From positions 1 to 64,000 of the forward strand of contig JANYBT010000054.1 of assembly GCA_025360645.1 (NCBI GenBank): a stretch of DNA of 64,000 nucleotides. The letters run 5' to 3'. Every line of letters starts with the position of its first letter. Within the stretch, counting starts at the first letter, position 1. The stretch comes from Acidobacteriaceae bacterium. Lineage in GTDB: Bacteria; Acidobacteriota; Terriglobia; Terriglobales; Acidobacteriaceae. Shown one piece after another: positions 47,484 to 54,016 of this stretch. The notes below the pieces were generated by a model. It searched no databases. It had not been told where the DNA came from and worked only from the letters and a program-made list of their open reading frames with translations. A program made the position numbers and the translations under genes.

Positions 47484-47791
47484 AATCGCTCCAAGGGTGA
47501 AATAGTTTGTGACGATGAGGTGACCCTCACCACCTTCATTGTAGGCGACATCCGCTCTGCTCCATCGCTCGTCATGCTGTCAGTCATTGCGCCGCCTGAT
47601 TCGCCGATCGCCGAATGGATCGCCTAACGACCACCGACGAACGACGAACGCCAACATCTGCCCGCTGCCTGCTTCGAGTTGCAGAAAGCGGCATTCTCTC
47701 CCTTCGGCATACAATACAGTCAACTTCCAGGCTGGCGCATGGGCGCTCACACAAGTCCCCGCCCCCTGAAAATCAAGGACTTGCTGAATTC
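47484..47791. other. Gene-free region upstream of mrdA
   Basis: 308 bases between the divergent YfiT-like and mrdA genes. A long open frame runs through it into mrdA, but its Arg/Ser/Thr-rich translation looks non-coding and a normal PBP2 N-terminus begins at 47792. It contains short CGATCGCC/GAACGACGAACG-type repeats at about 47598-47650 and presumably both promoters, none of which is clear by eye. Confidence 0.4.
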
Positions 47792-49756
47792 ATGCTCGAC
47801 CGGGATGACAAAGTATCTTCCTTCAGGCTGACCGCGATTCAATATGGACTCCTGTTCATTTTCCTGGTGCTGGCCTATGGGTTGTGGCGGCTGCAAGTGG
47901 TGCAGAGCAATCTGTACGCCGGCTTGGCCGAAAAGAACCGCATCCGCAATGTGCCCATCCTCGCTCCCCGTGGCAAGCTGCTTGACCGCGAAGGCCGCGT
48001 CATCGTGGACAACTACCCTTCGTTTTCAGCACTGATATTGCGGGACTCGGCACGGGACCTGATCGGCGACGCGGACCTAATTGCTCAGGGCTTGCACCTG
48101 AATCCCGACGATCTGCGCGAACGCATCCGTCGCTTCGACGGCTTGCCCACCTATGAGCCCATCTTCATCAAAGACGACATCACCCCTGATGAACTGGCGT
48201 TCATTGACTCGCACCGCAACGAACTCCCCGCCCTGGACGTGATCATGGCGCACCGACGCCTTTATCCCAAGAGCGGGTTCATGGCGCACTTGATCGGCTA
48301 CGTCGGCCAAGTCACCGACAACATGCTCAACCAGCCCCAGTTCGAGAACTACAACCCGGGCGACGTAGTGGGTGTTTCCGGAGTCGAGAAGCAATACAAC
48401 CAGATTTTGATGGGACAAAACGGCTCGCGGCGGGCCATTGTGAACAGCCGCGGCAGAGAAGTGGGACACCTCGATGAGACCCCTGCGACACCCGGTAAAC
48501 AGCTCAAGTTAAGCATTGACCTTGACCTGCAAATTGCTGCGGAAGAGGCACTTGATGGGAAGAATGGAGCGATCGTTGCCATGGATCCACGCAACGGCGA
48601 AATCCTCGCCATGGTGAGCCGCCCGACCTTCGATCCCAATGACTTTGCCGTGCACATCACGCGCGACGAGTGGACAAAACTCACTACCGACGAGAACCAC
48701 CCCCTGCTGAACAAAGCCATCCAGGCGCAACTCGCTCCCGGCTCGGTGTTTAAGATCATCATGGCGACGGCGGGACTGCAAGAAGGTATTGCCCAAGACC
48801 TGAAAGTGGTGTGCCACGGCGGCGGAACGTTTTACGGGCGCTTCTTCAAGTGCTGGATTGCGGCGCAGCACAGTTCGCACGGCGTAGTCGAGATCAGCCG
48901 AGGTATTTACCAATCCTGCGACGTGTTCTTTTACACTCTGGCGGAGCGGTTGGGGATCGGGCGCATTGCCCAATATGCGACGGCCTTCGGGTTGGGACAG
49001 AAAACGCACATCGACTTGCCGCAAGAAGCCAGCGGCTTGATGCCGTCAGAGGAGTGGAAGATCCGCAACTTCAACCAGAAGTGGTACGCGGGAGAAACCA
49101 TCTCGGTGGGCATTGGCCAGGGTGCCGTGGCAGTTACGCCCGTTCAACTGGCGCGGGCGATCGGCGGGATCGCGAGCGGTGGAGTGATGCATCGTCCGCA
49201 TGTGCTGCTGGCCCGGGAACTGCCTGACAACATGATTCCGGCGCAAGACTCGAGCAATGTGGTCCGAGTGCCGATTGATCCTAAAAATTGGGAGATCATC
49301 ACGAACGCGATGGCCAACGTGCCTTCCCCGCTTGGCACGGCGAATAGCGCCCACTTGCAAGGAATTGATTTCGCCGGCAAGACGGGCAGTGCACAGACCG
49401 TCAGCAACGATGCACGAAAAATCCTGACTAGTGCCAAGTACAAAGACAATGCCTGGTTCGTGGGTGTGACCCCGCGCCGCAACCCGGAAATCGTCGTCGC
49501 CGTGCTATTTGAGGGCGGAGAGCACGGACAGTTTGCAGCCCGCATTGCAGCTCAGGTGGTGAAGGCGTACGTGGAGAAACAGCGCCGCCTGCCGACCAAG
49601 CTTGCCCAAGCCGGACAACCCGTCGAGATGGCAGGCCTGTGGAACCAACCGCCCGCTCATGACGGCGAAACTCCCGGCCTCAAGGGCGCACGATTCCACA
49701 TTCCTTTGGTGCGACGCATGGCGCCGCCAGCGGCTGCCGCCCCAGGGTTGCACTGA
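47792..49756 (+). CDS. mrdA: Penicillin-binding protein 2 (transpeptidase)
   Basis: 654 residues from the ATG at 47792. A membrane anchor at about 13-36 (AIQYGLLFIFLVLAYGLW) is followed by the non-catalytic dimerisation domain (NRIRNVPILAPRGKLLDREG). The transpeptidase motifs are Ser318-x-x-Lys321 (PGSVFKI), Ser375-Cys-Asp (IYQSCDVFF) and Lys530-Thr-Gly (GKTGSAQT). It crosslinks peptidoglycan during rod elongation together with RodA, encoded 15 bases downstream. The usual mreBCD genes are not directly upstream. The C-terminal tail is Pro/Ala-rich. Confidence 0.94.
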   Translation: MLDRDDKVSSFRLTAIQYGLLFIFLVLAYGLWRLQVVQSNLYAGLAEKNRIRNVPILAPRGKLLDREGRVIVDNYPSFSALILRDSARDLIGDADLIAQGLHLNPDDLRERIRRFDGLPTYEPIFIKDDITPDELAFIDSHRNELPALDVIMAHRRLYPKSGFMAHLIGYVGQVTDNMLNQPQFENYNPGDVVGVSGVEKQYNQILMGQNGSRRAIVNSRGREVGHLDETPATPGKQLKLSIDLDLQIAAEEALDGKNGAIVAMDPRNGEILAMVSRPTFDPNDFAVHITRDEWTKLTTDENHPLLNKAIQAQLAPGSVFKIIMATAGLQEGIAQDLKVVCHGGGTFYGRFFKCWIAAQHSSHGVVEISRGIYQSCDVFFYTLAERLGIGRIAQYATAFGLGQKTHIDLPQEASGLMPSEEWKIRNFNQKWYAGETISVGIGQGAVAVTPVQLARAIGGIASGGVMHRPHVLLARELPDNMIPAQDSSNVVRVPIDPKNWEIITNAMANVPSPLGTANSAHLQGIDFAGKTGSAQTVSNDARKILTSAKYKDNAWFVGVTPRRNPEIVVAVLFEGGEHGQFAARIAAQVVKAYVEKQRRLPTKLAQAGQPVEMAGLWNQPPAHDGETPGLKGARFHIPLVRRMAPPAAAAPGLH

Positions 49757-49771
49757 GGTGGCAAGACTACT

Positions 49772-50860
49772 TTGACGCGCAGTATTTCATTTCGCGATTT
49801 CGACTGGTGGCTGTTGGCGCTCGTGCTGGCCATCTGTCTGCTTGGGATCATTGAGATTCGCAGCGCTACATCGCACACGAAGTTTGCCGGCGCCCATCTG
49901 AAGCAGGTGTATTGGATTGTTGGCGGCATATGCGCCATGTTTTTGCTGAGTTTGGCCAATTACCAGGTTCTGCTGGAGCGGGTGCGCTGGATGTATCTAA
50001 TGTCGGTGGGTTCGCTGCTGGCAGTGCTCGTGTTCGGCCAGAAGTATTTGGGGGCGAGGCGCTGGATCAAGATGCCGGGTGGACAGCACTTTCAACCGTC
50101 AGAGTGGGTCAAGCTGATTCTGATCCTCGCGGTGGCCAAATATTTTGCCGACCTCCAACAGAAGGAACTTTCGTGGCCGGATTTCCTGAAAGCGGGGTTG
50201 ATGGTCGGAGCCCCGATGCTCATGGTACTAGTGCAACCGGACTTGGGGACCGCGCTAACCTATCTTCCTATTGCCGCAATGGGCCTCTTCCTCGGCGGTT
50301 TGCGCTGGAAACAGATGCTCACGGTTTTGTTGTTCGTGGGACTGTTGCTTCCCGTCGCATGGGTCAAAGTCTTAAAGCCGTACCAGAAAGAGCGGCTGAC
50401 CAGCTTCCTGAATCCGGACGCTGACCGGCGGGGCTCCGGATACCAAGTGAACCAGTCGCTGATCGCGGTGGGAGCGGGCGGGATCTGGGGCAGCAGTGAA
50501 GGCTCGCAGACCCACCTGATGTTTCTGCCGGTTCCGCAAACCGACTTCATTTTCGCGGCGTTTGCCGAGGAACATGGGCTTGTGGGTGCGTTGACCCTTT
50601 TGCTGCTATACTTCATGGTGCTGATGCGATTGACGCAGAATGCGCAGACGGCACCTGACCGCGCTGGAGCATTCGTCGTGATGGGTGTGGTGGCTGTGCT
50701 TGGCTTTCATATCCTGGTCAACGTTGGCATGGTGGTCGGGTTTATGCCGGTTACCGGAATACCCCTCCCGCTGATGAGTTACGGCGGGTCTTCAGTTCTG
50801 TTCATGTTTTTGGCCTTGGGTTTGGTGATGAACATCCGCATGCGCCGGTTTGTGAATTGA
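49772..50860 (+). CDS. rodA: Rod-shape peptidoglycan glycosyltransferase RodA
   Basis: 362 residues, about ten membrane segments, TTG start. SEDS-family signatures: GARRWIKMPGGQHFQPSEWVKLILILAVAKYF, LVQPDLGTALTYLPI with the catalytic Asp region, GSGYQVNQSLIAVGAGGIWG and FAEEHGLVGAL. The C-terminal GIPLPLMSYGGSSVL is also present. It polymerises lipid II in the elongasome and partners with the PBP2 encoded just before it. Transcription probably continues toward the RNase E/G leader, but a 390-base gap follows. Confidence 0.95.
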   Translation: MTRSISFRDFDWWLLALVLAICLLGIIEIRSATSHTKFAGAHLKQVYWIVGGICAMFLLSLANYQVLLERVRWMYLMSVGSLLAVLVFGQKYLGARRWIKMPGGQHFQPSEWVKLILILAVAKYFADLQQKELSWPDFLKAGLMVGAPMLMVLVQPDLGTALTYLPIAAMGLFLGGLRWKQMLTVLLFVGLLLPVAWVKVLKPYQKERLTSFLNPDADRRGSGYQVNQSLIAVGAGGIWGSSEGSQTHLMFLPVPQTDFIFAAFAEEHGLVGALTLLLLYFMVLMRLTQNAQTAPDRAGAFVVMGVVAVLGFHILVNVGMVVGFMPVTGIPLPLMSYGGSSVLFMFLALGLVMNIRMRRFVN

Positions 50861-50938: not shown

Positions 50939-51250
50939 GCCCTCGCGGACAAAGAAGGGCAGACACCGGCGAAGACGATCGGGAACGCCGGCCAGGATTG
51001 AAGTGGAAGTTGAGCCAGAAGGGTAACGGCCCCCTCAAGAGTCAGAGAGAGCGGTCACAAACCTGGTTCCACGCAGAAACGTGCGCAAGAATTGCATGAT
51101 GTTTACGCAGTTACGGTTCCGGGGTAAACCTCCGGGCCAAAGGGCTAGCCTAACGGCTGCCGCGCTCGTTGTTCACGCCACTCCTGCCGCATTGTTCCCC
51201 TCAGTCTTCCGGTGAATTTGCTGCCGCAGAACGGCAGCACCGGAGCTTGT
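50939..51250 (+). promoter_or_regulatory. Structured leader upstream of the RNase E/G gene
   Basis: No gene is visible in this stretch. Two clear hairpins occur: 51119-51135 (six-base stem CCGGGG/CTCCGG with one G-U pair) and 51219-51239 (perfect eight-base stem TGCTGCCG/CGGCAGCA). CCGGTG (51209-51214) could pair instead with CACCGG (51238-51243), which covers the ribosome-binding GGAG at 51242-51245. That would offer a switch for translation. E. coli RNase E controls its own mRNA through its 5' leader; a parallel here is inference. Confidence 0.45.
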
Positions 51251-54016
51251 ATGAATAGAGAGTTGTTTGTATCCACCACACCTCACGAAACCAAGGTGGG
51301 TCTGGTGGAGGACGATTTACTCGCAGAAATTTACCTGGAACGCGAGAACGAATACACCCTCGCTGGGTCCATTTACAAAGGCAGAGTCACCCGCGTGCTC
51401 CCCGGTATGCAGTCCGCTTTCGTGGACATCGGGCTGGAGCGCGACGCCTTCCTTTACGTTTCCGATTTCATGGACCTGGAGCAGCACGACGAGGACCTGG
51501 ATACACCCGTCCCAGTCAAATCCGCTCCTGAACCGAGACAGCAAGAACCGAGAGTGTTTGAAACTCGAGCGCCCCGCGCGGAAATGCGTTCTGCCGCGCC
51601 ACCGGCAGAAGATACCCAAGGCGACGAAGGGACAGAGGCATCGGGCGGGCAAGGCTCCTCCGGCGAACAATTTGCCGCGACAGGGAATGGCGGTCGGGGT
51701 GGCCGCGAAGGTCGGGGTTTCCGTGGCCGCCGCCGTCGCGGACGCCGCGATGATCGAAGTGAACGAAGCGACCGAACTGAACGAAGTGATCGTGGCGAGC
51801 GACGTCCGGCGGAGCCCCTCGCCGCCGCCCCGGCCTCGATCCCGCCACCAATGACTGCACGCCCTTCGCGTGCATTCAGCGAAGAATACGGCCCTCCCGC
51901 AGGCTACGAGCCCATGCTCCTTCCCGGCGAATCCATCTCAAAATATCGGGGAGTTGCCAAAACCATCGCCCCTCCGGCCGTGAGTCAGGCCGAGGCTGCA
52001 GTAACTGAGGTGCCCCAGCACGAGCCCGTTCACTCCGAAGTCCTCCCGACCCAGGCGACCTTTGCATCGCAGGAGCCTGAGTGGAAGGGCTGGCACGCGG
52101 AGCCCGAAGAAGCTCATGCCGAAATCGCTGAGCCCAGTGTGGTTTGGGCTAGAAACGACAACTTGGAGTTGAAGGAAGAGCCAGAGACCCACGTCGAGCC
52201 GGAAGCCGTCGCGGCGGACGAGGAACACCAGCCTAGTCACCAGCACAGTCACGAGCCTAGTGACGATCTCGCCACCGACGTCCATGCCGAACCTGCCCAC
52301 GCGACGGTTGAGGCAGAGCACAACGCCGAACCCGAGCCTCACCAGGAACCGTCGGACGATCAACATCATCGCCTGCACGGCGCGGTAGTAAACGAGGAAA
52401 TCGACGAAGAAGAGGCGGACTTGGCCGCTTACGTGGAAGACCTCGAAGAAGATGCCACCTTCGAGGAGATGGAAGAAGAAACCAGCGCGGCCAACGAATT
52501 TGGCCAGACCCGGCGCAGCGTATTTGCCGCTGATACCACTGGAGCAGCTCACGAAGAACACGAAACGCTGTTGGGGATCGAAGCCGAGGGCGCTGAAGAG
52601 GACGAGGGAGACGATCTCGATCTGGACGAAGCGCAGGCGGAAGCCGAGGCACTAATGGCGTCGGGCGGGGCGGTTCATCCCGCTGATGACACCAACTCCG
52701 ACGGCAGGGTTTCCCCTGTGGGCGACCCGCAACGTGAACAGCAGTCTGAAACCGACCGTCGCCGCGGGCGCCGGGGCGGTCGTCGCTTTACCCGCAAGCG
52801 CGAGAACACCGTGATTCCGCAAATCAGCGACCTGCTCAAAGAAGGCCAGGAAATTCTGGTCCAGATTGCCAAAGAGCCGATTGGCAAGAAGGGTGCGCGC
52901 ATCACCAGCCACATCGCTCTTCCGGGACGCTTCCTGGTTTACATGCCGACGGTGAATCATACCGGAGTGTCGCGCAAAATTGCTTCCGAAGAGGAGCGGC
53001 AACGCCTGAAGCGCATCATCCAAAGCGAGCGGGAGAACGGGCACGGTGGCTTCATTGTTCGCACCGCCGCCTCAGGATGCTCCGAAGACGAGCTTCGGGC
53101 CGACATTCGCTTCCTCAAGAATCTGTGGAACGAAATCAAAGGCCGCGCGGATTCCAATAAGGCCCCGGCTCTGATTTATCACGATCTCAACGTGGTCGAG
53201 CGCGTGCTGCGCGATCAGGTGACTTCAGACTTCTCCGTGATTTGGGTGGATACCGAACAGGAGTACGAGCGCATTCTGCGCTTCGCTAACCGCTTCCAGC
53301 CCGCCTTGGTGCGGCGCGTTAAGCTCTACACCAAGGAGACTCCGCTGTACGAGCAGTTCGGTCTCTCCGAGGAAATCAACAAGGCGCTGAAGTCGAAAGT
53401 GTGGCTGAAGAGCGGCGGTTACATTGTCATCAATCAGACCGAAGCTCTGGTCGCGATTGACGTCAACACCGGCAAGTACGTGGGTAAGACCACCCGGCTG
53501 GAAGACACCATCGTCAAGACCAACGTGGATGCGATCAAGGAAATCGTTCGCCAGATTCGCCTCCGCGACTTGGGCGGCATCATCGTCATCGACTTCATTG
53601 ACATGGACGAGCGCCGCAATCGCCAGAAGGTCATGCAGGCGCTGGAAGAAGCTCTTCGCAACGACCGTGCGCCCTCCAAGGTCCTGCAGTTTAACGATTT
53701 CGGTTTGGTGGCGATTACACGGAAGCGTGTGAAACAGTCGCTGGAGCGGACCATCGGCTCCCCGTGCCCCTACTGCGAGTCCACCGGATTCGTGAAGTCG
53801 GTCACCACGGTTTGCAACGACATTTATGTCGAGGTGCGCAAAGTCGCCAAGCACCTGCAGAATCCTGACGTGATGCTGCGAGTGAACCCGGAAGTGGCGA
53901 AGACGCTGAAGAACAACAACGCCAAGCTGCTGATCGAAATGGAAGAACTCTTGGGCCGGAGCATCATTGTGAAATCCGATCCGGCATTGCACCAGGAACA
54001 GTTCGACGTGAACTAG
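51251..54016 (+). CDS. Ribonuclease E/G with a large insert in the S1 domain
   Basis: 921 residues from ATG 51251 (GGAG five bases upstream). The S1 domain starts normally (GSIYKGRVTRVLPGMQSAFVD ... FLYVSDF, to about residue 78). About 435 residues of disordered, Glu/His/Pro-rich sequence with Arg/Ser/Asp-Glu repeats (RSERSDRTERSDR, RRRGRRGGRRFTRKR) follow. The second half of S1 then resumes near 518 (LLKEGQEILVQIAKEPIGKKG). The catalytic core is complete: AIDVNTGKYVG and IVIDFIDMDE carry the metal-binding Asp residues, and CPYCESTG is the zinc-link. It processes rRNA/tRNA and decays mRNA. A strong terminator follows. Confidence 0.93.
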   Translation: MNRELFVSTTPHETKVGLVEDDLLAEIYLERENEYTLAGSIYKGRVTRVLPGMQSAFVDIGLERDAFLYVSDFMDLEQHDEDLDTPVPVKSAPEPRQQEPRVFETRAPRAEMRSAAPPAEDTQGDEGTEASGGQGSSGEQFAATGNGGRGGREGRGFRGRRRRGRRDDRSERSDRTERSDRGERRPAEPLAAAPASIPPPMTARPSRAFSEEYGPPAGYEPMLLPGESISKYRGVAKTIAPPAVSQAEAAVTEVPQHEPVHSEVLPTQATFASQEPEWKGWHAEPEEAHAEIAEPSVVWARNDNLELKEEPETHVEPEAVAADEEHQPSHQHSHEPSDDLATDVHAEPAHATVEAEHNAEPEPHQEPSDDQHHRLHGAVVNEEIDEEEADLAAYVEDLEEDATFEEMEEETSAANEFGQTRRSVFAADTTGAAHEEHETLLGIEAEGAEEDEGDDLDLDEAQAEAEALMASGGAVHPADDTNSDGRVSPVGDPQREQQSETDRRRGRRGGRRFTRKRENTVIPQISDLLKEGQEILVQIAKEPIGKKGARITSHIALPGRFLVYMPTVNHTGVSRKIASEEERQRLKRIIQSERENGHGGFIVRTAASGCSEDELRADIRFLKNLWNEIKGRADSNKAPALIYHDLNVVERVLRDQVTSDFSVIWVDTEQEYERILRFANRFQPALVRRVKLYTKETPLYEQFGLSEEINKALKSKVWLKSGGYIVINQTEALVAIDVNTGKYVGKTTRLEDTIVKTNVDAIKEIVRQIRLRDLGGIIVIDFIDMDERRNRQKVMQALEEALRNDRAPSKVLQFNDFGLVAITRKRVKQSLERTIGSPCPYCESTGFVKSVTTVCNDIYVEVRKVAKHLQNPDVMLRVNPEVAKTLKNNNAKLLIEMEELLGRSIIVKSDPALHQEQFDVN

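Follow-up and report, generated by a model that had tools for sequence, protein, structure and literature searches.

The question raised by this locus is what a disordered segment of more than four hundred residues does inside the S1 domain of an RNase E/G family enzyme, and how it came to be there. In E. coli RNase E the long disordered degradosome scaffold is C-terminal. A sequence-only reading of the window (the whole stretch of 64,000 nucleotides that was analysed, from contig JANYBT010000054.1) described an S1 domain interrupted by disorder, and proposed that the RNase E scaffold, or an RNA-binding platform, had moved to a new place in the chain. The features of the region that bear on this proposal are the following:

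47615 to 49756, forward strand: mrdA, penicillin-binding protein 2 (PF00905/PF03717), upstream, with the start codon unrefined
49772 to 50860, forward strand: rodA (PF01098), immediately preceding the RNase G gene
51251 to 54016, forward strand: RNase G gene, an intact open reading frame of 921 amino acids (ATG at 51251, stop at 54016)
51251 to 51475, forward strand: N-terminal region with the first S1 strands, residues 1–75, from the alignment with E. coli RNase E/G
51476 to 52804, forward strand: disordered S1 insert, residues 76–518, about 443 amino acids, net charge −58, from composition, pLDDT and orthologues
51683 to 51757, forward strand: Arg/Gly patch 1, residues 145–169, within GNGGRGGREGRGFRGRRRRGRRDDR, conserved relative to shuffles
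51905 to 51946, forward strand: short linear motif, residues 219–232, EPMLLPGESISKYR region, with LPGES..KY at 51920–51946
52376 to 52660, forward strand: acidic tract, residues 376–470, net charge −33, with two short helices predicted by AlphaFold2
52751 to 52804, forward strand: Arg patch 2, residues 501–518, TDRRRGRRGGRRFTRKRE, directly before the next S1 strand, from conservation
52805 to 54016, forward strand: remaining S1, 5′-sensor, DNase I, zinc-link and small domains, residues 519–921 and stop, from Pfam

An upstream GTG at 51212 is an alternative start, but an unlikely one because the orthologues begin at the same MNKELFVSSTPHETK. Pfam models assign residues 557–827 to PF10150 (RNase_E_G, 8.6e-104) and residues 838–920 to PF20833 (RNase_E_G_Thio), while the S1 model matches residues 39–81 weakly, over half of the domain. 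E. coli RNase E aligns to the protein in two blocks (residues 2–72 and 523–890), with the insert between them. The catalytic residues D737, N739 and D781 are kept (D303, N305 and D346 in E. coli RNase E), and so are the zinc-link cysteines C839 and C842 (C404 and C407), the 5′-sensor residues R604 and T605 (R169 and T170) and the S1 residues F57, F67 and K547 (F57, F67 and K112), with F57 and F67 being the RNA-binding aromatics of S1. With its catalytic, S1, zinc-link and sensor residues in place, the enzyme looks active.

The identity of the core decides whether anything can have moved. A tree of 73 cores plus both E. coli enzymes splits into an RNase E-type and an RNase G-type group with full support (100/100). 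The window protein falls with E. coli RNase G, whereas the RNase E-type group includes E. coli RNase E and consists mostly of C-terminally tailed members. The genome itself is an Acidobacteriota MAG of the Terriglobia, near relatives of Sulfotelmatobacter/Korobacter. A model of the Terriglobia core likewise scores E. coli RNase G at 439 bits versus 293 bits for E. coli RNase E. The NCBIfam RNase G equivalog is matched at 510 bits, below its cut-off of 594, with the match split by the insert, and Foldseek returned RNase E structures and nothing new. The chain ends 79 residues past Cys842, with no C-terminal tail; the early C-terminus had been correctly observed, and is of normal RNase G length: in E. 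coli RNase G, a protein of 489 residues, the corresponding cysteine is Cys408, so that the chain continues about as far beyond the zinc-link. By its core sequence, the window protein is an RNase G orthologue and not an RNase E; the compact, uninterrupted S1 of E. coli RNase G, typical but not strictly defining of that enzyme, is not shared. Given an RNase G core, the missing tail is an RNase G trait, and E. coli RNase G is not known to have ever had a C-terminal scaffold. The proposal that an RNase E scaffold had moved is therefore abandoned: nothing moved, and an RNase G without a tail acquired a segment inside its chain.

As to what this segment does, we consider that it is most likely a scaffold for protein docking and RNA binding. 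We lean, by a modest margin of belief, towards the view that the S1 insert of RNase G, as a main mRNA-decay endonuclease, acts like the tail of E. coli RNase E.

The insert occupies residues 76–518, close to the first estimate of about 435 residues between positions 80 and 515. It interrupts the loop linking two S1 strands, between F67 and K112 in E. coli RNase E numbering, beside the RNA path that these two residues are known to line. It is acidic and Arg-rich, comprising 23.5% D+E, 9.0% R, 1.4% K, 8.6% P and 4.5% H, and order-promoting residues fall from 35.8% in the core to 14.9%. The structure prediction agrees with disorder, with an AlphaFold2 pLDDT mostly between 30 and 45; the S1 strands were likewise modelled with low confidence. 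Its charges are arranged in blocks compared with shuffled sequences (z = 8.1), as they are in the tails of E. coli RNase E (6.9) and of acidobacterial RNase E enzymes (7.6), a pattern that, judged from sequence, would suit a BR-body-type region. The platform part of the earlier proposal holds up to this extent: the segment is disordered, charge-blocky and Arg-rich, with scaffold-like conserved short motifs, even though no RNase E scaffold was relocated.

The comparison with orthologues shows that the insert belongs to the enzyme. Among Terriglobia orthologues with a readable N-terminus and insert, 81/81 carry it in an open frame, at lengths of about 300–860 residues, while the part after the insert is constant (401–405 amino acids to the stop). 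Its absence from close relatives, one of the observations that would have undone the sequence-only reading, was not encountered. A frameshift or assembly artefact, the other such observation, is practically excluded: we found no point in its support, the insert lengths differ between orthologues around a constant core, and the segment is in-frame in dozens of independent assemblies, complete genomes included (Terriglobus roseus NC_018014 and Acidobacteriaceae ZG23-2 CP085323).

Within this variable segment, one short element stands out. When orthologues were scanned against shuffles along the insert, PMLLPGESISKY came far on top, followed by two Arg-rich stretches. The pattern LPGE[ST][LIR].[KR][YFH] is present in 81/81 Terriglobia inserts versus 0/16,200 shuffled ones; this count is one of sequences sharing descent and not of independent events, and its weight lies in the contrast with the hypervariable flanks. 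L224, P225, G226, E227 and Y232 are the only invariant columns of the insert alignment, and the LPGE core occurs twice in 40/75 inserts and three times in 2. At the DNA level, the motif pattern gives one or two matches each in 18 of 21 whole genomes, at or beside the PF10150 position wherever both were listed, and the reversed pattern gives zero matches in the same 21 genomes, which rules out a general genome word. Synonymous codons of the motif vary freely among orthologues; a constraint on the DNA or RNA is ruled out and selection acts on the protein. The AlphaFold2 pLDDT at the motif is 71 in the full chain and 83 when the insert is modelled alone, suggesting a short self-contained element that does not need its own core, as expected of a docking element. 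Docking of the motif onto its own core was also considered and found no support, as the predicted local confidence persists with the insert alone.

The remainder of the insert is far less constrained. Conservation over most of its length does not exceed that of shuffles, and column identity averages 14% across the alignment. These figures, together with lengths that range from about 300 to 860 residues, would fit a tolerant loop that has expanded mostly neutrally, in which the motif alone matters and its role is unrelated to RNA decay. Against such an expansion, which we regard as very unlikely, the insert has been lost in 0/81 Terriglobia orthologues, and both the order of its elements and its charge blocks are kept. 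Arg/Gly patch 1 precedes the LPGES motif in 81/81 Terriglobia inserts, with R158, G159, R161, R163, R165 and R169 conserved in at least 90% of the orthologues, and in 76/81 the motif lies between the first Arg patch and the acidic maximum, with the second Arg patch last.

The position of the insert suggests another role. Lying between F67 and K112, which line the RNA path, the segment could be an autoregulatory gate, whose acidic tract would imitate RNA and cover the S1/active-site channel until displaced by the substrate or by a regulator binding LPGES. The acidic tract has predicted helices, and in the Caulobacter structure 4OXP the helices of the S1 insert occupy the RNA site, with acidic side chains suggested as RNA mimics (PMC4245959). 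However, conservation is highest in the LPGES motif and in the Arg patches rather than in the acidic tract, the predicted local structure of the motif is independent of the core, and the 860-residue version is far larger than a gate needs. We consider a gate to be unlikely as the main function, although it is the main rival of a scaffold, and both functions may coexist in the same segment.

In the scaffold that we prefer, RNase G would have become a main mRNA-decay endonuclease beside RNase J. Both Arg-rich patches would keep RNA close to the catalytic channel, while LPGESxxKY would be a docking peptide recruiting a decay partner, such as a helicase, PNPase or RNase J. Short linear motifs recruit degradosome partners in the RNase E tail (PMC4435900), and charge patches drive the condensation of BR-body tails in alpha-proteobacteria (PMC12691583); blocks of opposite charge in the insert could promote clustering in the same way. 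We count in favour of a scaffold the RNase G core with its active residues kept, the single RNase E/G, the lack of a detected RNase Y and the presence of RNase J in the genome, the single clade of inserts, the motif in 81/81 inserts, the order of the elements, the motifs of the sister clades and the charge blocks. Several points count against it: the position of the insert could equally serve to block or gate the RNA channel, a net charge of −58 is unusual for a whole RNA-binding platform, the association of long inserts with a lack of RNase Y comprises few independent changes, and some families in the same genomic situation have short inserts.

The gene neighbourhood raises the alternative that the insert sets the location or clustering of the enzyme, as a condensate or through envelope attachment near the MreB/RodA machinery, the motif being an address tag and not a dock for decay enzymes. 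The RNase G gene follows mrdA and rodA, and the E. coli order mreBCD-yhdE-rng likewise places rng among cell-shape genes; moreover, the charge blocks resemble those of condensate-forming tails (PMC12691583). Nevertheless, this neighbourhood may be an old syntenic arrangement and does not prove where the enzyme is located, and no amphipathic membrane segment was seen in the insert by eye. Such a role in positioning strikes us as distinctly unlikely.

The history of the insert was traced across 297 Acidobacteriota genomes and about 100 gene regions. Inserts of at least 100 residues occur in many families and form a single clade on the RNase G tree (support 99/99), in enzymes of 800–1300 residues, and shorter inserts of 65–84 residues are found in a few other families (f15, f33, f57 and f72). 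On this gene tree, the inserts of at least 100 residues arose once within Acidobacteriota and then diversified. The families with long inserts have one PF10150 match per genome in the 297-genome survey, with the exception of one genome.

That genome, G270, from the same family as the window, has a pair of distinct S1-insert RNase G genes (L236 and L237), both with LPGE, which may reflect a duplication or a mixed assembly. The long N-terminal extensions of L169 and L170 were set aside, being apparently, by eye, read-through of upstream open frames in GC-rich DNA. A further RNase G, L175 of family f40, has an apparent Arg-rich N-terminal extension of about 110 residues (MSGELKRRRRRGRRGGRGRGG...), which may be a third position for such a segment.

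The rest of the RNase complement differs between lineages. In the genome of the window, searches found no second RNase E/G and no RNase Y, while RNase J is present (536 bits). Among the genomes with a long S1 insert, no RNase E-type paralogue was seen. Elsewhere in the phylum, the two-copy genomes examined, with both copies retrieved for part of them, combine a short-loop RNase G with a tailed RNase E; the families of the tailed RNase E-type paralogues have an RNase G without a long insert. RNase E-type paralogues with a C-terminal tail of 230–405 residues were recorded at L165, L182, L183, L187, L243, L244 and L246. By family, the median insert is 297 residues without RNase Y versus 30 residues with it (Mann-Whitney p 1.3e-4), but this association, strong across families, comes down to only five independent pairs on the tree and is not used as proof. 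Furthermore, families f15, f24, f29 and f38 lack RNase Y and have just one RNase E/G match, yet their inserts are short, indicating that such a genome does not require the insert. RNase Y is present in 19 of the 20 genomes listed without an RNase E/G match, and neither enzyme was seen in G053.

The sister clades of the Terriglobia enzymes carry motifs of their own. LPGE was not found in any of the 22 long S1 inserts that were tested outside Terriglobia. In families f10, f20, f52 and f60 (L151, L159, L181, L186 and L212–L216), exactly two copies of ILPxx[LIF] are present per insert in 9/9 sequences, compared with about 0.03 expected, and these pairs may constitute a second docking system; the pattern [IVL]LP[GEDAS]..[LIFV] misses this motif, whose spacing is different. 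In families f11, f21, f31, f59, f69, f70 and f75, the inserts contain FERxxDDE-like repeats; in all of these families but f59 (L152, L160, L161, L167, L168, L190, L191, L194 and L240) each insert has one to three of them, and an RRGGRGRRR-like stretch often precedes the next S1 strand. The place of the insert was thus conserved and its motif set replaced, similarly to the replacement of microdomains in the RNase E tail of gamma-proteobacteria (PMC4435900), and the sister-clade motifs could play the same docking role with different sequences. On this basis we tentatively propose, as a possibility that falls short of probable, that a degradosome evolved independently on RNase G in Acidobacteriota lineages without RNase E. 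An S1-embedded disordered scaffold would have been gained once, after which each class furnished it with docking motifs of its own: LPGESxxKY in Terriglobia, a pair of ILPxxL in another clade and repeats of FERxxDDE in a third. Partners would then be recruited at the entrance of the RNA channel and not at a C-terminal tail.

The LPGES motif could serve directly as bait in a search for the docking partner. Should the insert prove to be a scaffold, one could also ask by experiment whether scaffolds have to be tails, or whether placement beside the RNA channel alters substrate choice.

Compared with known systems, the insert lies inside S1 and not at the C-terminus, as first described, but calling this a new place is too strong because alpha-proteobacterial RNase E (Caulobacter, PDB 4OXP) and plant chloroplast RNase E have inserts at the same S1 loop. 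According to PMC4245959, those inserts are charged and predicted to be disordered, but measure about 50–150 residues versus about 300–860 here, and the helicase RhlB binds a Caulobacter fragment holding the insert; the LPGES motif is not reported in the text covered for the alpha-proteobacterial and plant enzymes. When the window protein is aligned with 4OXP and E. coli RNase E, its insert falls in this same loop. By score, the Caulobacter fragment is RNase E-type (144 versus 119 bits) and the acidobacterial core RNase G-type, so by sequence the insert was probably gained independently. Alpha-proteobacterial RNase E also carries a C-terminal scaffold. A 2011 survey gave a length of 511 amino acids for the RNase E/G of Fibrobacteres/Acidobacteria and predicted the degradosome to be absent (PMC3071783). 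In the literature covered, outside which the main classification paper on RNase E homologues falls, the S1-insert architecture is not described for Acidobacteria. The known kind is therefore the S1-loop insert, and what would be new is its long version on RNase G, across a large branch of soil Acidobacteriota.

The closest likeness is found in tails. At the position of the insert, about 12 residues are present in E. coli RNase G, in a cell that additionally has RNase E, whose tail of about 500 disordered residues resembles the insert in make-up, charge blocks and short motifs within disorder (PMC4435900). The tails of acidobacterial RNase E-type enzymes (e.g., L165, L187 and L246) are charge-blocky, Arg-rich and disordered like the insert, but C-terminal and on the other paralogue. 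The same difference separates the insert from the E. coli scaffold. A long disordered segment inside S1 that contains a nearly invariant short motif points to an RNA-decay scaffold of these bacteria's own, made on another enzyme and in another place than that of E. coli. If the insert is indeed a scaffold, degradosomes arose on two paralogues, at different positions of the chain.
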